Source: a virus. From it: DNA of 24,167 bases. Below, in pieces: positions 1 through 18,978 of the stretch. A model generated the notes under the pieces. The model was not told the DNA's origin. It saw only the letters and a program-made list of their open reading frames with translations, and did no database searches. The first letter of the stretch is position 1, and each line of letters begins with the position of its first letter. The stretch lies in the IMG/VR virus record IMGVR_UViG_3300005264_000137, positions 1 through 24,167 of that record, one strand, 5' to 3'. Made by a program: the position numbers and the translations under genes.

Positions 1-323
1 ATAATTCAACTAATAGATATATTATTAATAATAATATAAAAATATATAATAATTATCTTAGACGAACCAATAAAAAATATTATATTGAAAACACAAAAAA
101 TGATAAATTAGTAAGCTTTTTTAAAAAAAATAATAAAGTATTACTTAATTTTTTACAATTAAACGTGGATACTTTAAATTTTATCATTAATGATTCTTTT
201 AAAGATGTTCTATATAATACAGAAGTTATTATTATAGATAAAAATATATATGATACCAAAAAAGAAATTCTTAATATGTGGAGAGGTAATATAATCATTA
301 ATGATGATGATTATAAGTTATAA
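1..323 (+). CDS. 3' end of an unrecognised gene (5' end outside window)
   Basis: A reading frame is open from the left edge (first full codon at 3) to a TAA at 321-323, giving about 106 residues of a C-terminal part. There is no plausible start inside: the only in-frame ATG is close to the end. The protein is rich in Asn, Lys, Ile and Tyr like its neighbours and ends NDDDYKL. I recognise no domain. It lies 3 bases before the next plus-strand gene, so it is probably the preceding member of the same sugar-modification operon, and its product may share that role; this is inference from position only. Confidence 0.7.
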   Translation, partial: NSTNRYIINNNIKIYNNYLRRTNKKYYIENTKNDKLVSFFKKNNKVLLNFLQLNVDTLNFIINDSFKDVLYNTEVIIIDKNIYDTKKEILNMWRGNIIINDDDYKL

Positions 324-326
324 ATT

Positions 327-1154
327 ATGAAAGAAAATGTGTTATTAATTGGCCCATATATAGGTGATTGGGAACATGAAATTACAACATTTAGACCATA
401 TGCAAAATGGATATCTGAAAATGTTGATGCAAATAAAATTTTTATTTCATCACATTTTAATAGACAATTTTTATATGACTGGATACCAAACAAACATTTT
501 ATACCTGTATATGAGCATTTAACAAGAAATGAAAAACAACAACAAAATTATTTGCATGAATCTATAGATAATAAAGATTATAAATTTTTAATTAAAGAAT
601 CAAAACAACAAATATGTAAAAAATTAAATATATCAATTAGGCAAATATTACATTATACAATTTCTTATCTTGAGTCCACACCACATTATTCATGGTATCA
701 GAAAATTTTTACACCAATTAATATTGATCCTATTCCAAATGATTATATATTATATATTCCATCAAAAAATGTATCAGATAATATTAATAAAAAATATTAT
801 AATTATTTGAATACAACATATAATAATGTTTATATGATAGGTGATAGTCATTGTTATAAATTTGATCATTTTATTAATTATCAAATTGATTATTATGAAA
901 CAGGATATAAAAATTTAATGAAATATTTATTAGGTTGTAAACTTATTATAACACCTTGTAGTCAATGGACTATGTTATGTAATTTACATAATTTACCTGT
1001 TTTTAGTTGGGGTGATTGTAGACAATATATGAAAAACAGTGATTATGGTTTTAATAATAATAATAATTATATATTAATATCAAATGATTTTAAAAGAGTA
1101 ATAAAAAGTATTGATTATTTTAAAAATGTAAGGGAGAAAAATAATGATTTATAG
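327..1154 (+). CDS. GT-B-like protein, possible heptosyltransferase-type glycosyltransferase
   Basis: A 275-residue protein with no signal peptide or membrane segment. Two features suggest a GT-B glycosyltransferase. The N-terminus is a Rossmann-like beta-strand start (NVLLIGPYIGDW). Residues 203-230 (GCKLIITP, then WTMLCNLHNLPVFSWGD) resemble the 'G.DLFIGPDSG..HLA..LG.P.V' nucleotide-sugar binding segment of ADP-heptosyltransferase-like (GT9) enzymes. Residues 170-176 (MIGDSHC) would sit in the second Rossmann domain. Length is somewhat short for the family. Its 3' end overlaps the next gene by 11 bases and the gene sits between other sugar genes, which supports a role in glycan synthesis. 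The start at 327 has only a weak SD, consistent with coupling to the gene upstream. Donor and acceptor cannot be read from the sequence. Confidence 0.55.
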   Translation: MKENVLLIGPYIGDWEHEITTFRPYAKWISENVDANKIFISSHFNRQFLYDWIPNKHFIPVYEHLTRNEKQQQNYLHESIDNKDYKFLIKESKQQICKKLNISIRQILHYTISYLESTPHYSWYQKIFTPINIDPIPNDYILYIPSKNVSDNINKKYYNYLNTTYNNVYMIGDSHCYKFDHFINYQIDYYETGYKNLMKYLLGCKLIITPCSQWTMLCNLHNLPVFSWGDCRQYMKNSDYGFNNNNNYILISNDFKRVIKSIDYFKNVREKNNDL

Positions 1155-1374
1155 AGATTTGTATTGTTCTAAATGTGGAAATAAAGAATTAGATGTTATA
1201 TTTGATTCAATAAATGATTCGATTAATCAAAAATGTTCAAAATGTCAATCAAAAATGTCAAATCTTTGTGCTTGTGGTTCATTCGAATTAAAATATGATA
1301 ATAAAAAAGATATGTGTGGATGGTCAGCTGATAATTATGATACTTCACAATATTATAGAGATTCAAAGGATTAA
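1144..1374 (+). CDS. Small zinc-ribbon protein
   Basis: A 76-residue protein with a CxxC near the N-terminus (CSKCG, residues 8-12), a second CxxC (CSKCQ) about 20 residues later, then CACG and a single Cys in MCGW. The first two pairs are the layout of an FmdB-like zinc ribbon. A good SD (AGGGAG) sits in the end of the upstream gene, and the start overlaps that gene by 11 bases, so translation is probably coupled. Tucked between a glycosyltransferase-like gene and the SQD1-like gene, it could be an accessory or regulatory protein of the sugar pathway, but no function can be assigned. Confidence 0.75.
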   Translation: MIYRDLYCSKCGNKELDVIFDSINDSINQKCSKCQSKMSNLCACGSFELKYDNKKDMCGWSADNYDTSQYYRDSKD

Positions 1375-1377
1375 ATT

Positions 1378-2517
1378 ATGAAAGATTGTATTATTATAAT
1401 TGGATCAGATGGATATATTGGTAATGCATTAGTTCAAAAATTATTGTCTGAAAATAAAATAGTTATTGGTCTTGATAATTTTTTAAGACGTATAATGGTT
1501 AAAGATTTAAAATCCAAATCAGCTATTGCTATTGATGAACCACTAGATAGAATAAAGAAAATAAAAAAATTAGGTACATTTAGTTTTCAAAGTCTTGATA
1601 TAGCAAAAGATATTGAACATACTAATAAAATTATAAAGAAATATAAACCTGATACTATTATTAATCTTGCTCATATAGCAAGTGGTCCTTGGTCAATGAT
1701 TGACGAAAAACATTCTAGTTTTACATTAATGAATAATATTATTGGTACAAATACCATTCTTTGGGCAATTAAAGAACATTGTCCAGATTGTCATTATATT
1801 ACTATTGGCTCAACCGGAGAATATGATCATTATAATAATATTGATATTGAAGAAGGTTATTTTTCTATTAAACATAATGGTAGACAATCAACTGAAATGT
1901 TATATCCAAGAAGACCTGGAAGCATTTATCATACAAGTAAAGTATCATCTACATATCTTATAGATTTTTTAACTAAAACCTGGAATTTATATACAACAGA
2001 TATTATGCAATCAATTGTATTTGGTGCATATACAAAAGAAATTAATCAGTCCAAAATATATTCAAGATTTGATACAGATGAAGCATACGGTACTGTTTTA
2101 AATAGATTTATATGTCAGGCAATATCAGATATACCATTAACTATCTATGGCAAAGGCAATCATAAAAGAGGATTTTTATCACTTAATGATTGTATTCAGG
2201 CATTAATGATAGCCATTAATAATAAACCAGAAAAAAATAGAACAAGAGTATGGAATCAATTAAGTGAATGGCACTCGATGAATGATATTGCTAAAATGGT
2301 ACAATCAGTTGGTAAATTATCTGGATATGATGTAAAAATACAACATATAAAAACACCAAGAAATGAAATTACTGATGATCATTATTATAATTATAAAACA
2401 AATATTTTAAAATCATTAGGTTATAAACCAACAAGAACAATCAAAGAAGAAATTAAATATTGTTTTGATTTAGTTAAACCACAAAAATTTAAAAAACCAA
2501 AAATAAATTGGAAATAA
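1378..2517 (+). CDS. sqdB: UDP-sulfoquinovose synthase-like SDR enzyme (SQD1/SqdB family)
   Basis: A 379-residue extended short-chain dehydrogenase. The N-terminus carries the NAD-binding glycine motif (GSDGYIG, residues 9-15) and an acidic residue after strand 2 (LDNF, 32-35). The YxxxK catalytic pair is Y184 and K188 (YHTSK), with Ser145 (IGSTGEY) where SQD1 has its active-site Thr. Beyond generic SDR motifs, segments match what I recall of plant and bacterial SQD1: SMID (106-109), NNIIGT (119-124), AIKE (130-133), NIDIEEGY (154-161), KHNGR (165-169), and a YGKG...RGFL block. SQD1 makes UDP-sulfoquinovose from UDP-glucose and sulfite, using a bound NAD cofactor. The SD AAAGGA overlaps the preceding stop. 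Full length matches SQD1. It could instead be a diverged nucleotide-sugar epimerase or dehydratase, but the SQD1-type segments make that less likely. Confidence 0.8.
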   Translation: MKDCIIIIGSDGYIGNALVQKLLSENKIVIGLDNFLRRIMVKDLKSKSAIAIDEPLDRIKKIKKLGTFSFQSLDIAKDIEHTNKIIKKYKPDTIINLAHIASGPWSMIDEKHSSFTLMNNIIGTNTILWAIKEHCPDCHYITIGSTGEYDHYNNIDIEEGYFSIKHNGRQSTEMLYPRRPGSIYHTSKVSSTYLIDFLTKTWNLYTTDIMQSIVFGAYTKEINQSKIYSRFDTDEAYGTVLNRFICQAISDIPLTIYGKGNHKRGFLSLNDCIQALMIAINNKPEKNRTRVWNQLSEWHSMNDIAKMVQSVGKLSGYDVKIQHIKTPRNEITDDHYYNYKTNILKSLGYKPTRTIKEEIKYCFDLVKPQKFKKPKINWK

Positions 2518-2520
2518 TAA

Positions 2521-4641
2521 ATGAAAAATGTATCTATTTTATTGCCAAGTAAACAGAAAAGATATTTATATCAACATTTAATACATAAAAAACATGATAA
2601 TGATGAAATAATGGTGTTTAATGCTGGTATGCATCAAATTACATCTGTTATGAATAAACGAATTAGTGAATCAAAACATGATTATATTATATTACTTGAT
2701 CCAAAAAAAAAAGACTTTGACATTAATAATATTAAAAAAGTAATACCTGATTATTATTATGATAACATTAAAGGAGTAATTGGATTTTCAAAAAATGATT
2801 TTGTTAAAGTACAATCTAAATGCTTATCACATATAAAATATCAAGAAAAAGTACTTAAATCATTAAAAACATATAAAGAAGTACTCACAAAACCTATTAA
2901 GTGGAATAAAATTTCAATTATTATTCCATTTATGTATAATGGTGATAGAATAAATCTATTCAATATCTGTATTGAAAATCTTTATAATTTAATTAAAAAT
3001 GACTCAAATATTGAATTAGTTATTCATGAAACAGGTCCAGAGCAATATTTAACTAATGATTGGATTAAAAAATATAATATTAAATATGAATTTTCTAAAT
3101 GGAATTACGTATTTCACCGAGGATGGAGCTTAAATTATGCAGCAAAACATATATCAACTGGTGATTTATATGTTTTTATGGACGCAGATCTTATTGTTGA
3201 TAAACAATGGATAAATTCTATTAAAAACGTATCTGGCGTATCAATTGGTTGGTCTGAAATGATAAATCTAAATTATAATGGTACACAAAAATTTATTAAT
3301 AAAAAATGGAATATACAAAATTCTGATATTGAACGGATAAGAAAACCAAATGCTTATGCTGCAGCAGGTGGTATTAATATTTATCCTAAAAAAGTATTTT
3401 ATGATATTAAAGGATGGTGTGAAGATTATTATGGAACATATGGTGGAGAAGATAATTCAACATTTTTAAAACTTCATAACTTTAATATACCAGTACATAC
3501 AATAAATTCTAAAGTGTTTCATCTTTATCATGCACATAATACTTTTAAACATCCAAAAAGATTTGAAATTTTTAACAAACATAAAGAATATACAAAATCT
3601 AATTGGATGAAATATATAAATAATATTAAATCATGGGGCGATAAAGAATATAAAATAAGTGATACAGAAAAATCTTTAAAAATATTATGGTTAAAAATTG
3701 ATACATCTAAAAGAGTTGCAGGTCATTATGATGATTTACCAAATGAATTATCAAATCATTGTCATATAGATATATTAACATGTGACTTACAAAATCAACA
3801 TCCAGCAATTTTTCAACAAAGATGTCTTATTAATGATATTCAAAGACCAGAAATAGTTAAAGATCATATACTTAAATCAAATAACAACTATGATTTCATT
3901 ATATGTGCTAATTTATTTGCATTTAATAATGAAGATTGGAGTAAAATTAATATTCCAAAGGCTGTATTAATTGAAGATCAACATGGTGAAAATAATCTAA
4001 ACCAAATTAAATTAGCAAAAAAAGATAATTGGATAGTATTACATAGATATCAATTTAATAAATTTCATACTGATTTAAATAAAAAATTAAATTGTATATG
4101 GTTTCCACATTCTGTTAATATTAAAAAATTTAAAAATTATAAACAACAAAAAAAATATGATATATTACAAACTGGTGCATTATATAATGTATATGAAACA
4201 AGAAATTTTATTAATAATATATTTAAATATGATCCAAATTTTCATCATATTCAAAGACCTAAAGAAAATGAAGATAAACAATGGCCTACTGGTATAGATT
4301 ATTCAAAAGAACTTAATAAATCATTATTATCAATATGTTGTGGAAGTATTTACCAATATCCTGTAATGAAGTATTTTGAAATACCGGCATCACATAGTAT
4401 TATATTTGGTGATTGGTTTCCTGAACTTGGTGATTTGGGATTTGAACCTTATAAAAACATGATAGTTGTAGATAAAGAAAATATAAAATTACAAATTAAA
4501 TTATTAAAAGAAAATATAAATAAATTGACAAAAATAGCAAATAACGGATATAATTTAATACACGAAAGACATACAAATCAAATAAGAGCAAAAGAACTTA
4601 TTAATATTATCAAAAATATACTTAAAAAAGGTGATTTATGA
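2521..4641 (+). CDS. Multidomain glycosyltransferase (GT2 plus CgeB-like GT-B domain)
   Basis: A 706-residue protein with three parts. Residues 1-125 are a degenerate Rossmann-like N-terminal part. Residues 130-345 form a GT2/GT-A domain with ISIIIPF (131-137), a metal-binding DAD (221-223), and AAAGGINIYPK (280-290) followed by GGED (308-311), as in the galactosyltransferase-type C-terminal segment, then an FHLYHAHN histidine cluster. From about residue 385 to the end is a second transferase resembling the CgeB/spore-maturation GT4-like group, including KYFEIPASHS and FGDWFPELGD before a final helical segment. A polymerising or two-step enzyme adding two sugars is a reasonable inference. It starts 3 bases after the SQD1-like gene with SD GGAAAT, and its stop overlaps the next start (ATGA). 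Cytoplasmic; no membrane segment. Confidence 0.82.
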   Translation: MKNVSILLPSKQKRYLYQHLIHKKHDNDEIMVFNAGMHQITSVMNKRISESKHDYIILLDPKKKDFDINNIKKVIPDYYYDNIKGVIGFSKNDFVKVQSKCLSHIKYQEKVLKSLKTYKEVLTKPIKWNKISIIIPFMYNGDRINLFNICIENLYNLIKNDSNIELVIHETGPEQYLTNDWIKKYNIKYEFSKWNYVFHRGWSLNYAAKHISTGDLYVFMDADLIVDKQWINSIKNVSGVSIGWSEMINLNYNGTQKFINKKWNIQNSDIERIRKPNAYAAAGGINIYPKKVFYDIKGWCEDYYGTYGGEDNSTFLKLHNFNIPVHTINSKVFHLYHAHNTFKHPKRFEIFNKHKEYTKSNWMKYINNIKSWGDKEYKISDTEKSLKILWLKIDTSKRVAGHYDDLPNELSNHCHIDILTCDLQNQHPAIFQQRCLINDIQRPEIVKDHILKSNNNYDFIICANLFAFNNEDWSKINIPKAVLIEDQHGENNLNQIKLAKKDNWIVLHRYQFNKFHTDLNKKLNCIWFPHSVNIKKFKNYKQQKKYDILQTGALYNVYETRNFINNIFKYDPNFHHIQRPKENEDKQWPTGIDYSKELNKSLLSICCGSIYQYPVMKYFEIPASHSIIFGDWFPELGDLGFEPYKNMIVVDKENIKLQIKLLKENINKLTKIANNGYNLIHERHTNQIRAKELINIIKNILKKGDL

Positions 4642-4835
4642 AAGTAGAAATGAAAATAATTATAAAATTATCAAATGACAAAACTATTGAAATATCAGAA
4701 AAAGACGCAAAAAAATTATATTATGATCTTTGTAATATATTTGATCAAATTCCAATTCCTCGTCAACCAATTCAACCTTATATATCACCAAAAAAATATC
4801 CAATAATTACATGTATATCATCAAATGAAAGTTAA
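4638..4835 (+). CDS. Small protein of unknown function within the sugar cluster
   Basis: A 65-residue protein. Residues 5-35 read as a beta hairpin plus helix (IIIKLSNDKTIEISEKDAKK), a pattern common in small phage proteins whose N-terminal strands are followed by a helix. The C-terminal half is Pro-rich with a PIPRQPIQPY segment. The start overlaps the upstream stop as ATGA and is preceded by AAGGTGA. The end overlaps the next gene by 11 bases, so this real but unrecognised gene is translationally coupled on both sides. A second Met at codon 5 is an alternative start. Confidence 0.65.
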   Translation: MKVEMKIIIKLSNDKTIEISEKDAKKLYYDLCNIFDQIPIPRQPIQPYISPKKYPIITCISSNES

Positions 4836-5529
4836 CTTTTTTTGGAAAGGTAATGATTTTAAATCATGGGATTATTTATGCCTAAAAAGTCATTTAAAGG
4901 TTAATCATGAAATAGTTATATGGTTATCAGGAGAACAACCTCAAAAAACATTATGGAATGATTTAATTAAACATAAAAATGTTTCAATTGAAAATGCAAA
5001 TGATATAATTAATATAGATAAATTTATTTCTGATGGTGGAAATTTTCAAACAGCTTCTGCTCTATTCAGATTTAAATTGTTATATTATAGTGGTGGTTGG
5101 TATGCTGATACAGATGCTTTTGCTGTTCAAAGTTGGGAAGATATTACAGAAAGTTGGATAGTTGCATCTGCAGAAGAAAATAGACAAATATTATCTATAG
5201 GTGTAATAAAAGCACCAGCATTTAGTCCAGTATTTTTATTATGTCTTAATAATATTAAACATAACTGGGGTAACGTTAAAATGTTTGATAAAATGTTTAA
5301 TACTACATATAAACATTGGACACCAAATATTAAAAATGAAGAATGGTACCCTTGGACATGGAAAAATTATAATATGTTATTTGAAAATGATTCATTAAAC
5401 AATTTTAAAAAAAATAATATTAGAAGTATTCATCTTTATAGTACAATGTTAAAAAGAAATAATATTGTTTATGGTAAACAACCGTATGATTGTTTACTTA
5501 ATGATATGATTAAATGGGTTGACGAATAA
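4825..5529 (+). CDS. DXD glycosyltransferase (Gly_transf_sug / GT32-like)
   Basis: A 234-residue protein. It opens VNFFWKGND, the typical first strand of the family. The diagnostic segment is SALFRFKLLYYSGGWYADTD (residues 78-97), in which the conserved Arg, the GG and the metal-binding DTD (95-97) match the DXD sugar-binding region of OCH1/GT32-type and capsular polysaccharide transferases. It transfers a hexose from a nucleotide sugar to an unknown acceptor. The later TWTPNIK-like Trp-rich stretch is usual for the group. Translation start overlaps the preceding gene and has no strong SD, so coupling is likely. This is the last plus-strand gene; it converges on a minus-strand glycosyltransferase only 26 bases away. 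Confidence 0.85.
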   Translation: MKVNFFWKGNDFKSWDYLCLKSHLKVNHEIVIWLSGEQPQKTLWNDLIKHKNVSIENANDIINIDKFISDGGNFQTASALFRFKLLYYSGGWYADTDAFAVQSWEDITESWIVASAEENRQILSIGVIKAPAFSPVFLLCLNNIKHNWGNVKMFDKMFNTTYKHWTPNIKNEEWYPWTWKNYNMLFENDSLNNFKKNNIRSIHLYSTMLKRNNIVYGKQPYDCLLNDMIKWVDE

Positions 5530-5555: not shown

Positions 5556-6239
5556 TCATGAAGTCAAATGTGATTGAATAATCATGTTTAATTTATTCTT
5601 CTTAATAGGAATAACAAAATCATTTATAATATATCTTAATTTTTTTTGATAGTCTTTTGATGATCCAGCACTAACACTATTTGGGCTAGCATATGCAATA
5701 AAAGATGTGTTTAATGTTGGTTTACCAATCTTTCCATGATATAAAAACTTCAACCACAAAGCCCAATCTAACAATCTAAAATACTTATCATCTGTTACTA
5801 CACCACCAATTTTTTTAAGATGTTCAGATTTCATCATAGATATAGATGAAATATAATTTGATTGTAACAAATGATTAATGTCAAATTCTTTGGCATTAAA
5901 TGATATATTTATACTACCTGTAAAACTAAAATCACAATAAGTATATGCAATTTGATCTAATGAATTATTTAATGTTTTAACCATTTGTTCAAGCATATTT
6001 GGTTGAACAATAATATCATTATCCATTTTTATAATGTATTTTGGAAGAGAATAATTTTTTTCATATAAAGTAAGTGCTGTATCAAAATTTTTATACGGGT
6101 TTTTATTATCACAATATTTGATCCAATGTATTGATATATTTGTTTTAGATACAGAATCATATGTTTCTTGTAATATATTATCATTAATTCTTAATGGTGT
6201 AATAATTAAAAGTTCAGGATTTTTATTATTAATTATCAT
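5556..6239 (-). CDS. GT2-family glycosyltransferase, minus strand
   Basis: A 227-residue GT-A fold protein. It begins ELLIITPLRIND (strand 1) and carries KMDNDIIVQP with DND at residues 73-75 as the metal and nucleotide-sugar site. It then has an acceptor-side segment with LKKIGGV and LLDWALWLK. Length fits a minimal GT2 domain. Its SD (AAGGAA) lies about 9 bases before the ATG, just beyond the hairpin at 6259-6290. That hairpin separates it from the gene upstream, so its promoter is not obvious. Functionally it belongs with the plus-strand sugar cluster although it faces it. Confidence 0.82.
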   Translation of the reverse strand: MIINNKNPELLIITPLRINDNILQETYDSVSKTNISIHWIKYCDNKNPYKNFDTALTLYEKNYSLPKYIIKMDNDIIVQPNMLEQMVKTLNNSLDQIAYTYCDFSFTGSINISFNAKEFDINHLLQSNYISSISMMKSEHLKKIGGVVTDDKYFRLLDWALWLKFLYHGKIGKPTLNTSFIAYASPNSVSAGSSKDYQKKLRYIINDFVIPIKKNKLNMIIQSHLTS

Positions 6240-8282: not shown

Positions 8283-8654
8283 TTACTTTTGATTGTTTAA
8301 AATCAATTTATTTAAAATATTATTTAACTCTTTTACTTCCAATGGTTTATTAAATATTGCACCAATATTAAGATAATCTTTTAATTGATGTGTATATTCA
8401 TCTATATAACCAGAACATAATATAATAGGTATATTTTTATCATACTTTCTTATTTGTTTAATAAAATCAATACCATCCATTTGAGGCATATCTAAATCAG
8501 AGATAATAGCATCATAGTTATTATCATTTTTAAATGCTTCTAATGCCATAACCGGATTATCATATATATCTGATTGTTTTTTAAATGATTTTAACATTAA
8601 ATTTAAAATATTTGATATTATATCATCATCTTCAACTATCATTATTTTATACAT
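8283..8654 (-). CDS. Single-domain response regulator (CheY-like receiver)
   Basis: A 123-residue stand-alone receiver domain with the full phosphorylation set: acidic pocket E8-D9-D10 (IVEDDD), phosphoacceptor D53 in ISDLDMPQMDG, switch Ser81 (LCSGY) in the Thr/Ser position, and Lys103 in FNKP. There is no output domain. Receiver domains accept phosphate from histidine kinases, so it could tap or drain a host two-component pathway, or bind a partner protein when phosphorylated. It is rare in phage replication blocks. SD AAGGAG stands 8 bases before the ATG, and this start region is present twice in tandem (8639-8716). It lies between the phosphatase and the 7849 gene. Confidence 0.92.
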   Translation of the reverse strand: MYKIMIVEDDDIISNILNLMLKSFKKQSDIYDNPVMALEAFKNDNNYDAIISDLDMPQMDGIDFIKQIRKYDKNIPIILCSGYIDEYTHQLKDYLNIGAIFNKPLEVKELNNILNKLILNNQK

Positions 8655-8758: not shown

Positions 8759-9368
8759 CAAAATAAAGTTGTTCATTAATCAAATTAATTGCCGTCAATT
8801 TTCCGTTATATGTTGCACCAGTATCAATCATCCAATGTCTATTCAATATTTTTTTCGCATTATTCTTTAATGGTGTATGTCCAAAAATATTAATAAATCC
8901 ATCATCGTATTTTTTATCATATAAACAATGATTATTATTTTGCATAGCATTATATACAGCATCACGACCCCATAATACATCATATACAAATGTTTGTTCT
9001 GCATTATATGCAAAACTATGAGAAATTAAATATCTCTTATCATTATAATTAAATTCACCAAATAAGGGTAAATTTTCAATCCATTCAATCCATTCAGAAT
9101 TTAACCAATCATTGATTTTTCCAAAATTATTTATTGTTGCTATACCACCATTTATCATCCATAATTTGTGATTATGTAATGCCATATCTTCATGATTACC
9201 AAGAACGCATTTATAATTATTATCTCTAACAAATTCAAGAACTTTTTTTGAATCTGGTCCTCTATCAATTAAATCACCCACAAAACACAAGTTATCTGTT
9301 TGTGGTAATTTATCTAGCAATCTCATTAACATATCATATTGACCATGTACATCACCTATAACAATCAT
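8754..9368 (-). CDS. Metallophosphoesterase (serine/threonine protein phosphatase-like)
   Basis: A 204-residue PPP-type enzyme. Motifs appear in order: GDVHGQ (residues 5-10), GDLIDRG, GNHED, then FGHTPL and a C-terminal DTGA. These are the dinuclear metal-site residues shared by lambda phosphatase, PrpA/PrpB and ApaH. Length is like lambda phosphatase. It may remove phosphate from host or phage proteins, or hydrolyse dinucleotides; sequence alone does not decide. Its neighbour downstream is a response regulator, so a joint signalling role is possible but unproven. The start overlaps the preceding gene as ATGA, and its SD (AGGAGA) is inside that gene. Confidence 0.9.
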   Translation of the reverse strand: MIVIGDVHGQYDMLMRLLDKLPQTDNLCFVGDLIDRGPDSKKVLEFVRDNNYKCVLGNHEDMALHNHKLWMINGGIATINNFGKINDWLNSEWIEWIENLPLFGEFNYNDKRYLISHSFAYNAEQTFVYDVLWGRDAVYNAMQNNNHCLYDKKYDDGFINIFGHTPLKNNAKKILNRHWMIDTGATYNGKLTAINLINEQLYFV

Positions 9369-9652
9369 AACGAAAAATTTCTCCTATTTATAATATCACA
9401 TAAAACATCACCATGACATTTTTTTGGTTTGCAATGACAACCTAGTATTTTTCCTTTAAGTTTATCAATTTCTTTTAATAATTTTGGATTATTATACAAC
9501 CACTTTTTATATTTTAAAATAACCTCTTGTCTATTGCCATCTATTCCAATTTTAAAAGGATTACCAAAAATTGATGGTCTTCCAATATAAACGTCATATG
9601 TATTACCTGAATTTATATTAATAACAGTTGTAAGATTAGTCATCTTTTGCAT
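9365..9652 (-). CDS. DUF4326-like small protein
   Basis: About 95 residues. The conserved core is YIGRPSIFGNPFKIG, followed by a helix with KYKKWLYNNP and then GKILGCHCKPKKCHGDVL. This matches my memory of DUF4326, found in many phages and bacteria, with a CHC...CH metal-like cluster; its activity is not established. I start at the ATG at 9652, where GGTGA stands 8 bases upstream. A longer start at 9700 would overlap the previous gene by 65 bases and lacks an SD; a second ATG at 9643 is also possible. It ends in an ATGA overlap with the phosphatase. Confidence 0.82.
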   Translation of the reverse strand: MQKMTNLTTVININSGNTYDVYIGRPSIFGNPFKIGIDGNRQEVILKYKKWLYNNPKLLKEIDKLKGKILGCHCKPKKCHGDVLCDIINRRNFSL

Positions 9653-10091
9653 AAATACTTTCACCAACTGCAAAAACTCTTTCCTTCCATTTTGGATCAT
9701 CTTTATTATATTCGATTTCTTTATAAAAATCCTCTACTTCATGACCAATTATTTTATAAGGATTTGTTGCTTCTAAATCAATAAAAATATGATTAAGTTC
9801 ATGTCTAATAATTCGTATTTGATCTGCCAAATCTAATAAAGGAAAAACATTACCATCAAGAAACATAATATAATTATAACCATCATCACTATTTTCATCT
9901 GATGAAGTTAAATAAGTTAAAATTGGTGTTGCCTTAACCATCTGACCTAAAATTAATGACCCATTACTCGTTTTCTTTTTCATATTAAATAATATTTTAA
10001 TTCTTGCATTTGATATAGTTGAAAAAGATTTTTTAATTTCATCATCCATAATTTTTATTATTGATTCGTTTACTTCTTCAAAATTACCCAT
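9636..10091 (-). CDS. Putative phage metallopeptidase (HExxH)
   Basis: A 151-residue protein with HELNH (His97, His101), followed 16 residues later by HEVEDFYKE, which can supply a third ligand. The layout (IRHELNHIFIDL, then IGHEVEDFY) matches the phage metallopeptidase family (Pfam PhageMetallopep) as I recall it. A zinc-dependent cleavage role is expected from the motif; no substrate is known. The start at 10091 is chosen because AAGGAG lies just upstream; an ATG at 10133 adds 14 residues without an SD. Its stop overlaps the next gene, and its start overlaps the end of the previous one by 8 bases. Confidence 0.82.
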   Translation of the reverse strand: MGNFEEVNESIIKIMDDEIKKSFSTISNARIKILFNMKKKTSNGSLILGQMVKATPILTYLTSSDENSDDGYNYIMFLDGNVFPLLDLADQIRIIRHELNHIFIDLEATNPYKIIGHEVEDFYKEIEYNKDDPKWKERVFAVGESIYAKDD

Positions 10092-16909: not shown

Positions 16910-16932
16910 CATGAAATTTGATATGATGTCAA
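16904..16932 (-). promoter_or_regulatory. Strong sigma70-type promoter upstream of the 16869 gene
   Basis: Minus strand: TTGACA (16927-16932), 17-base spacer, TAAAAT (16904-16909, five of six). The -35 box contains the TGA stop of the homing nuclease. The start site, near 16897, falls in the loop of the hairpin 16874-16909. Confidence 0.8.
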
Positions 16933-16933
16933 G
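16923..16933. repeat. 11-bp direct repeat, distal copy
   Basis: The same 11 bases (ATGATGTCAAG on the plus strand) occur at 18945-18955. The two copies flank the nuclease island. This copy contains the -35 box of the 16904-16932 promoter and the nuclease stop codon. Confidence 0.7.
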
Positions 16934-18524
16934 TTTTATTATATTCAAATACGTAATTTCCACAATCCCATATTCTATCAATACCATTTTTTAACATGTT
17001 TTGATATTCTGTTAAACTTGAATCGAAAAATTGTAATTTATCTTTAATTTTATGTTTTTGAAATGCTACTCTATGATGTCTTTTTTTGTCTATAATATAA
17101 AAATAATTTGGTTGTGATATATGTTTAAATTTAAATCCTATTTTTTTATAAAATGTTCCATCACTATATCTCAAATCTGCAAATGTTTTTATATATGAAA
17201 TATTATAATGTTTTATTAAATATTTTAATAATTTACTGGCACCACCTACTATTTGTACATTAGATTTATTACAAAATCTTATCATTTCAAAATTAACTGT
17301 TTTTGATCCACCTATAGTTCTTTTACCAAATGTCATAACTGATAATAATTCTAAATTATCATATAATCCAAATTGATAAGAAGAATTATCTTTACCTTGT
17401 AAATGATACTTATCAAGAAATTGATTAGATATTTTTTTATCAATTTTCATAATTTGACATTTTCTAGCATAATATCTTTTATTAAACATACCTAATTTAG
17501 ATAATATTACTGATTTAACTATATCTGATTTATTCAACCATTCATCACTAAAAATTTGAATCAATTGAATACCTTGTTGTTCACACATTTTAGTTTTATT
17601 TAAATGATAATTTTTATCTTTACCTTGTTGTTCACTATGCCAATATAATCCATTATATTCTATTGCTATTTTATAATCAGGTAAATATATATCAAGTTCT
17701 AATGGTCTAATTATTGATCTATCATTTACTATAACATTATTAACATGTAGTTTAATAAAATTTTGTAAATCTTTTTCTTCATTACTAATCTGACTTTCTG
17801 CATTACATTGTGGACATCTTGCATTATTATGTTTGAATCTACCAAAAGATACCTTATATTGATGTCCTTTATCACATTTTATATCTAAATTAGTAAATGT
17901 ATTAACATACTCTTTACTTATTAATGTATAACCTTCTTTTTCAATATACTCTTTAATATCATTATATTCATGTTTTACATTACCATAACAATATGGACAT
18001 CTTTGTCCTCTTTTCCACATTTTATATGATATAAAATGTTCATGTCCATTTGGACAAATATAATTTAATGGGTCATTAGTACCCACATAAATATCTGATA
18101 CTAAAATATAACCTTCTTTTTCAAATGATAATTTAACATCATTATATTTATTTTTAACATTACCAGCACAAATAGGACATCTTGTTCCCATTTGAAAATC
18201 ATTCCATTTCATATTAAATTTATGTCTTTTATCACATTGTATTTCTAATTTGGTTATTGCATTAATATATTCTTTACTTATTAGTGTATAACCTTCATTT
18301 TCAATATATTCTTTTATATTTTTAATATTATTCTTTTGACTATTAGTATTACATTTAAGTGAACAATATACAGCGTTTTTTCGTAAGGTGAAAAACATTT
18401 GATTACATGATTTACAACATATTAAATAAAAATTTCGTTTTAATTTTATATTTCTATACGTTTTACCTGTTTTTGATAAAACAAAATCATCCATATTACA
18501 ATTTTTTAATAAAATATTTTTCAT
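16929..18524 (-). CDS. Free-standing homing endonuclease (zinc-finger repeats plus Vsr-like nuclease)
   Basis: A 531-residue mobile nuclease. An N-terminal treble-clef-like finger (residues 36-58) is followed by three repeats of about 55-60 residues (65-120, 125-180, 184-240). Each repeat has EGY(T/I)L(I/V)S, a CxxGH-like pair (CDKRH, CPNGH, CDKGH) and CPxC. The catalytic part (about 275-345) reads LELDIYLPDYKIAIEYNG, then LYWHSE, then IFSDEWLNKSDIV, like Vsr or EDxHD-type homing nucleases. A C-terminal domain (350-531) is typical of phage versions. It would cut an uninfected allele of this locus and copy itself by recombination. It lies between gp23 and the 16869 gene and brings no other cargo. 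Confidence 0.9.
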   Translation of the reverse strand: MKNILLKNCNMDDFVLSKTGKTYRNIKLKRNFYLICCKSCNQMFFTLRKNAVYCSLKCNTNSQKNNIKNIKEYIENEGYTLISKEYINAITKLEIQCDKRHKFNMKWNDFQMGTRCPICAGNVKNKYNDVKLSFEKEGYILVSDIYVGTNDPLNYICPNGHEHFISYKMWKRGQRCPYCYGNVKHEYNDIKEYIEKEGYTLISKEYVNTFTNLDIKCDKGHQYKVSFGRFKHNNARCPQCNAESQISNEEKDLQNFIKLHVNNVIVNDRSIIRPLELDIYLPDYKIAIEYNGLYWHSEQQGKDKNYHLNKTKMCEQQGIQLIQIFSDEWLNKSDIVKSVILSKLGMFNKRYYARKCQIMKIDKKISNQFLDKYHLQGKDNSSYQFGLYDNLELLSVMTFGKRTIGGSKTVNFEMIRFCNKSNVQIVGGASKLLKYLIKHYNISYIKTFADLRYSDGTFYKKIGFKFKHISQPNYFYIIDKKRHHRVAFQKHKIKDKLQFFDSSLTEYQNMLKNGIDRIWDCGNYVFEYNKT

Positions 18525-18940
18525 ATAAATTCTCTTATTATTAATTTGTATTGTTTATTATTATTTAACCATTCTACATCATTTATTACCAATAAATCAA
18601 TATCTATTTTAATACACTGTTCTTTCTTAATATTATCTTTAATTTTTTGGTATGGTTTATCATGCCAATAATATTCAATAGCTTTATTTAAATTAAGTAT
18701 CCATACGTCCAATTCAAGATAATGACCAGTAATTATTTCATTTCTTACTATATCTGATTTGCTACTTGTTGTTCACCTTTACTGGATGTTGATTCAATAG
18801 GACATCTTCTATTATGATTTTTAAAATTTGAAAATGATTGATGACCTTTATCACATTGAACATCCATTTTAAATTGTGTATTAATATATTGTTTAATATA
18901 ATTATAAAGACAACTTTTTAATAAAATTAACATTAAACGC
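18521..18940 (-). pseudogene. Decayed second homing endonuclease
   Basis: Two frames together carry remains of a relative of the gene downstream. Frame one (18748 to about 18940) reads KMDVQCDKGHQSFSNFKNHN, then RRCPI and SSKGEQQVANQI before a stop, like the last finger repeat of the intact nuclease but with a short deletion after CDKGHQ. Frame two (18521 to about 18756) reads LELDVWILNLNKAIEYYWH, then INDVEWLNNNK, like the nuclease core. No complete gene can be read, there is no plausible start, and the last codons overlap the ATG of the intact gene. Divergence suggests a related but not identical nuclease rather than a recent duplicate. Confidence 0.78.
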
Positions 18941-18978
18941 AAAAATGATGTCAAGAAATTAATCAAGACATCATTTTT
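18941..18978 (-). terminator. Terminator downstream of gp23
   Basis: A perfect 12-base stem with a 14-base loop, ending on the minus strand in a run of five T. It should end the capsid transcript before the nuclease island. It also contains a TTGACA (18949-18954) with only a poor -10 at the right distance. Confidence 0.85.
18945..18955. repeat. 11-bp direct repeat, gp23-proximal copy
   Basis: Identical to 16923-16933. This copy forms part of one arm of the gp23 terminator. Confidence 0.7.

Follow-up and report, generated by a model that had tools for sequence, protein, structure and literature searches.

Can a phage make a sulfonated nucleotide sugar? The question is raised by one gene, at positions 1378-2517 (+) of the window, which is the whole stretch of DNA analysed here and comes from the record of a viral fragment of 24,167 bases. 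Photosynthetic membranes and archaeal glycoproteins are known to contain sulfonated sugars, and in plants and bacteria SQD1 attaches sulfite to activated glucose. The original prediction described the gene product as a UDP-sulfoquinovose synthase encoded by a T4-type phage. The SQD1 family, the full length and the T4-type phage all stood; UDP-sulfoquinovose as the product is plausible only, and five pocket positions proved to be changed.

The phage and its SQD1-like gene

The major head protein of the window matches phrog_138 (1.9e-92), and gp23 matches to this protein were found in 2,519 phage records. Other genes match the families of the portal (phrog_213), the head maturation protease (phrog_207), UvsX-like proteins (phrog_97) and SbcC/gp46-like proteins (phrog_77). 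Taken together, these head, portal, protease, UvsX-like and gp46-like genes bear out the phage origin that had been proposed, and on its gene content the window is DNA of a T4-type phage.

Several other genes of the window were recorded. Beside the major head gene, the gene at 16929-18524 (-) encodes DUF4379 zinc-finger repeats, an endonuclease-like stretch and a C-terminal Mom-like domain, and it is adjoined by a short paralogous fragment at 18748-18966 (-). A stand-alone response-regulator receiver domain (8283-8654 (-); PF00072, 1.2e-18) is also present in this T4-type phage, as is a DUF4326 protein (9365-9700 (-); PF14216, 8.5e-25).

The gene under study runs from an ATG start to a TAA stop and encodes 379 amino acids, assigned by sequence and fold matches to the extended SDRs of the SQD1 family. 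The NAD-binding glycine motif GSDGYIG (residues 9-15; 1402-1422 (+)) aligns with GGDGYCG of SQD1, and the catalytic YHTSK (residues 184-188; 1927-1941 (+)) carries Y184 and K188, which correspond to Y182 and K186 of SQD1 in sequence and alignment. The blocks SMID, NIDIEEGY and KHNGR lie at residues 106-109, 154-161 and 165-169. All the blocks that had been named were found, in the order and spacing of SQD1, and the claim of full-length homology is upheld.

The comparison with SQD1 (PDB 1qrr, 1i24) gave E = 6.6e-74 and 252.8 bits and covered SQD1 residues 4-350, whereas the next solved family, dTDP-glucose 4,6-dehydratase (RmlB), reached 48.6 bits only; with such values the likeness is not due to chance. 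The nearest solved fold to the AlphaFold model (mean pLDDT 86, pTM 0.90) is also SQD1 (TM 0.90, rmsd 2.1, E 1e-38), and the next fold follows at 1e-20. Pfam assigned the protein to the general Epimerase family only, and the NCBIfam UDP-sulfoquinovose synthase family ranked top for all 18 proteins of the virus clade described below. The window protein scores 389 bits against NF041015, under the curated cut-off of 575. Nevertheless, a Sinorhizobium meliloti protein of the known SqdB type scores even lower (332), so this cut-off is too narrow to decide and its being missed was dropped as counter-evidence. Furthermore, dN/dS values of 0.06-0.24 between the closer virus pairs indicate purifying selection. 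Judged from these comparisons, the protein is an SQD1-family enzyme by descent, and in function it counts as SQD1-like, its pocket being remodelled.

Catalytic residues and the changed pocket

Residue numbering was anchored on Thr145 of SQD1. The catalytic Ser/Thr, Tyr and Lys are present in the window protein as S145, Y184 and K188, and Ser145 aligns with SQD1 Thr145, confirming that a Ser takes the place of the active-site Thr. In the alignment, the segment S145-T146-G-E148-Y149 (1810-1824 (+)) has this Ser for Thr and T146 for Met, and keeps the Glu and the Tyr. E148 and Y149, the equivalents of E147 and Y148 in Agl3, are invariant in the virus clade. In Agl3 these two residues carry the dehydration step, and their alanine mutants have 12-15% of the activity left; H95A, R101A, M145A, Y182A and K186A are inactive, and T144A is still active (PMC4388408). 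Since Agl3 tolerates T144A, the Thr-to-Ser replacement at 145 is a minor change and the least important one.

Concerning the pocket, the alignment revealed five changes, which in SQD1 numbering are H96N, E99H, R101A, M146T and Q261H, all at sites that the family keeps with high conservation or that are critical for its function. The changed loop reads N96-L-A-H99-I-A101 (1663-1680 (+)), where SQD1 has H-F-G-E-Q-R. His262 (2161-2163 (+)) stands at the SQD1 Gln261 position, which is His in 18 of 18 virus-clade proteins and Gln in 31 of 31 cellular rows. In the same cellular rows H96 and E99 are invariant; in the virus clade, position 96 is Asn in 18/18 proteins, position 99 is His in 17/18, and position 101 is Pro or Ala.

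The residues H95, R101 and M145, which are essential in Agl3, are replaced in the window protein by N96, A101 and T146. A loss of pocket residues, which would count against the original prediction, was therefore found in part: three of the five changes fall on Agl3-essential positions, but the Tyr, the Lys, Glu148 and Tyr149 are kept. The loss of R101 was considered as decisive evidence and dropped, since SQD1 homologues of actinobacteria and viruses commonly have Pro at this position, so that among the Agl3-essential residues only H95 and M145 serve as strong criteria. In viral SQD1 proteins that are otherwise usual, H96N occurs singly in L140, Q261H in L141, M146T or M146A in L186, L202 and others, and R101P in many; E99H is the sole pocket change of the window not seen singly in such proteins. 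The acid-base motif [ST]DE of RmlB-type 4,6-dehydratases (motif table of PMC8987622) is absent from the window protein, which has S-T-G at 145-147.

The virus-only branch and its gene neighbourhood

In the tree with outgroups, the SQD1-like and virus rows were split from other SDRs (100/100) and the virus clade formed one group (100/100) with a long stem. The AU test did not reject keeping the cellular SQD1 rows together (p 0.84), and a place between SQD1 and the outgroups is possible for the virus clade; another choice of outgroup put the root inside that clade. Rooting with distant SDRs was dropped, since the root shifts with the outgroup, and the virus clade may be either nested or sister. 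The 103-row tree, built by a quick method with 70 more viral relatives, no distant outgroup and the root set on alphaproteobacterial SqdB, placed the virus clade inside a fully supported SQD1-type group. A position outside the SQD1 clade, which would speak against the original prediction, was not seen in this larger tree, although the root is uncertain with distant outgroups.

In the first tree, the cellular proteins closest to the virus clade were those of an Actinobacteriota SQD1 subgroup with the motif GECPSAPYSM (L045-L050, L057, L107-L109). In two of these loci the SQD1 gene is adjoined by a conserved gene for a small membrane protein, which we take to be a DUF2304 protein.

Scans of IMG/VR with the window protein and its alignment gave 22 contigs. 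Once near-identical copies were collapsed, the IMG/VR contigs, the window and one MAG sequence made up about 19 distinct loci. All members are viral contigs except for that one sequence, which was found in two MAG bins, and a search of 84,980 genomes of bacteria and archaea met the branch on this single sequence only, an 11 kb contig. GTDB genomes searched with the window protein alone gave no match, and the alignment search gave the two MAG contigs. These (L024, JAGMAD010000039.1, and L025, JAGLZA010000255.1) are 100% identical over 10,695 bases and come from a Parcubacteria and a WOR-3 bin. As the same sequence occurs in two unrelated bins, it is probably a misbinned viral contig; it also has genes in common with viral loci in which a DNA polymerase and a clamp-loader-like gene occur. 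The genes upstream (clusters 3, 1 and 2) are common to 11 distinct loci with T4-type neighbours, window included, several of which have a primase-like gene just upstream and a gp5-type baseplate gene downstream. Because these 11 loci have the same upstream genes, the gene holds a stable position in a T4-type phage group.

In the window, the upstream group begins with a partial ORF cut by the window end (3-323 (+)), recognised by locus comparison as its conserved first gene. It is followed by a probable glycosyltransferase of 275 amino acids (327-1154 (+)) with a weak GT-B fold resembling GT9 heptosyltransferases (best match 1psw, E 1.4e-4; model pLDDT 73), which is kept in 14 of 25 compared loci. 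A small zinc-ribbon protein (1144-1374 (+)) comes next and is conserved beside the gene in T4-type relatives, one of which (L014) matches PF09723. Downstream lie a two-domain glycosyltransferase with GT2 and GT1-like parts (2521-4641 (+); PF00535, PF13524), a glycosyltransferase with a DXD sugar-binding region (4825-5529 (+); PF04488) and, on the other strand, a glycosyltransferase-like gene conserved downstream in many relatives (5556-6239 (-); weak EpsE match). Very likely, the SQD1-like protein supplies the glycosyltransferases of the phage with a modified sugar.

Moreover, sulfotransferase genes occur within about 6 kb of the SQD1-like gene in 7 of the 19 distinct loci (L001, L003, L005, L006 with two, L011, L013 and L024), taken as a raw count. 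In L011 and L013, the directly adjoining gene is a weak assignment: its Pfam sulfotransferase match is below the cut-off, and it was called because it clusters with the L024 protein. L013 has a further gene, which passes the Sulfotransfer_3 cut-off. In L003 one protein combines a sulfotransferase domain with a radical SAM domain as a fusion.

Regarding the sulfite supply, no sulfite-making PAPS reductase (PF01507) was found in the 19 virus-clade records, which are mostly fragments and include contigs of 223 and 234 kb, nor was a sulfoquinovosyltransferase recognised. PF01507 is likewise absent from 18 records with usual-motif SQD1 genes, so its absence is not diagnostic. A PAPS reductase as phage-encoded sulfite source was dropped on these two counts, and the host could supply sulfite. 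On a Pelagovum pacificum plasmid (L028), a SqdB-type gene is directly followed by a phosphoadenylyl-sulfate reductase gene, a natural sulfite source for UDP-sulfoquinovose.

The family is not confined to this branch. Searched with alignments of usual SQD1 and of usual SqdB proteins, IMG/VR yielded 198 and 77 matching stretches; 80 and 76 loci from these were retained, giving a total of 155 (L113-L267), their viral status being that of the IMG/VR classification, with a gp23 check on 48 contigs. Plant SQD1 used as a single query against IMG/VR gave no match, and this wide family was seen only by the alignment scans. Most of these loci keep the usual SQD1 motifs, with R101P being common. The 48 contigs gave five strong and two weaker gp23 matches, and the SQD1-type genes of gp23-bearing contigs stand in conserved glycosyltransferase islands. 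In the 50,697 phage records of INPHARED no SQD1-family gene was found, only generic SDR matches of 24-26%. Genes of the SQD1 family are thus frequent among uncultivated viruses but missing from the records of sequenced phages. The synthesis of a sulfonated nucleotide sugar had been thought undescribed in phages, and this view has to be abandoned, given this wide family and a Mu-like phage from the Cariaco Basin for which a putative UDP-sulfoquinovose synthase was named in 2020 (PMC7785012).

Possible product and relation to known systems

We lean towards SQD1-type chemistry on a UDP-hexose, most likely UDP-glucose, in the service of phage glycosylation. The protein would act as a NAD+-dependent extended SDR and turn this activated hexose into a modified donor sugar. 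Ser145, Tyr184 and Lys188 would oxidise C4, the C6 hydroxyl would then be lost with the aid of Glu148 and Tyr149, a nucleophile would add at C6, and finally C4 would be reduced. The nucleophile would most simply be sulfite, giving UDP-sulfoquinovose, a product that is plausible, if just short of probable on the sequence, and a close relative of it is nearly as likely because the pocket is remodelled. The family, the fold, the kept catalytic residues, the remodelled pocket, the purifying selection and the glycosyltransferase surroundings come from the data, whereas substrate, product and the glycosylated target, which may be the virion, the DNA or the host surface, are what we infer here.

This SQD1-type reading is favoured because SQD1 is the nearest relative by sequence and fold, the Ser/Thr, Tyr, Lys, Glu148 and Tyr149 are kept, and the virus clade sits among usual-motif proteins in the 103-row tree and has the UDP-sulfoquinovose synthase as its top NCBIfam family. 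Purifying selection, the glycosyltransferase neighbours, the sulfotransferases in 7/19 loci and the single occurrence of each pocket change save E99H in usual viral relatives give further support. Against it stand the joint change of five positions, three of them alanine-inactive sites in Agl3, as well as the missing PAPS reductase in the 19 records, the missing sulfoquinovosyltransferase and the unreached NF041015 cut-off, which SqdB of the known type misses as well. It is possible, though not what we expect, that the protein is instead a neofunctionalised SQD1 relative that does not use sulfite, namely a 4-epimerase, a 5,6-dehydratase or some other modifying enzyme whose substrate is a different nucleotide sugar, with the changed pocket setting the new specificity. 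The co-fixation of H96N, E99H, M146T/A and Q261H across a long-stem clade, the two new invariant or near-invariant histidines and the lack of a sulfite-making gene in the 19 records point that way. GalE epimerases have small residues after the catalytic Ser/Thr, and those of the virus clade recall them. However, Glu148 and Tyr149, the dehydration pair of Agl3, are found in every virus-clade protein, and each change but E99H is seen singly in relatives that are otherwise usual.

It is very improbable that an ordinary epimerase or 4,6-dehydratase of the GalE or RmlB type merely resembles SQD1 here: the general Pfam assignment and the intermediate position left possible by the AU test would fit it, but the gap in bits and in fold score between SQD1 and the next families, the missing acid-base DE pair and the full split of SQD1-like rows from the outgroups speak against it. 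A degenerate or inactive copy, which the loss of several Agl3-essential residues could suggest, is equally hard to credit in view of the full length, the low dN/dS, the invariant catalytic Tyr and Lys and a gene order conserved in many phages. A bolder proposal, which we consider unlikely, is that the virus-only branch with its new pocket makes an undescribed nucleotide sugar, perhaps with some nucleophile in place of sulfite; together with sulfotransferases, T4-type and other phages would use this sugar for acidic glycans.

If phages do make sulfonated sugars, phage glycosylation would acquire an acidic component that carries sulfur, and viruses would be linked to the sulfoquinovose cycle. 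Of broader interest, and easier to test, is how widely SQD1-family genes occur in uncultivated phages, and the usual-motif genes in T4-type contigs are better candidates for a test than the window's own protein. The virus-only branch, for its part, is a natural test of which pocket residues are important in SQD1.

Compared with known systems, the window protein is closest to SQD1 of Arabidopsis thaliana (PDB 1qrr, 1i24, 1i2b), with 39.7% identity over the aligned stretch, the same fold, the catalytic Tyr and Lys, GEY after the catalytic Ser/Thr, and the NIDIEEGY and HNGR blocks. It differs from SQD1 in T145S and the five pocket changes, in W15N of the NAD-binding loop and in its phage location. 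Agl3 of Sulfolobus acidocaldarius (PMC4388408), compared through primer-derived motifs only, shares the equivalents of Y182, K186, E147 and Y148, and those of H95, R101 and M145 are lost. The usual-motif SQD1/SqdB genes of IMG/VR belong to the same family, lie in glycosyltransferase islands and in some cases in T4-type gp23 contigs, but they keep most or all of the usual pocket motifs, unlike the window clade. The putative synthase from the Cariaco Basin (PMC7785012) is phage-encoded too and can be likened by its enzyme name only, in a Mu-like phage.
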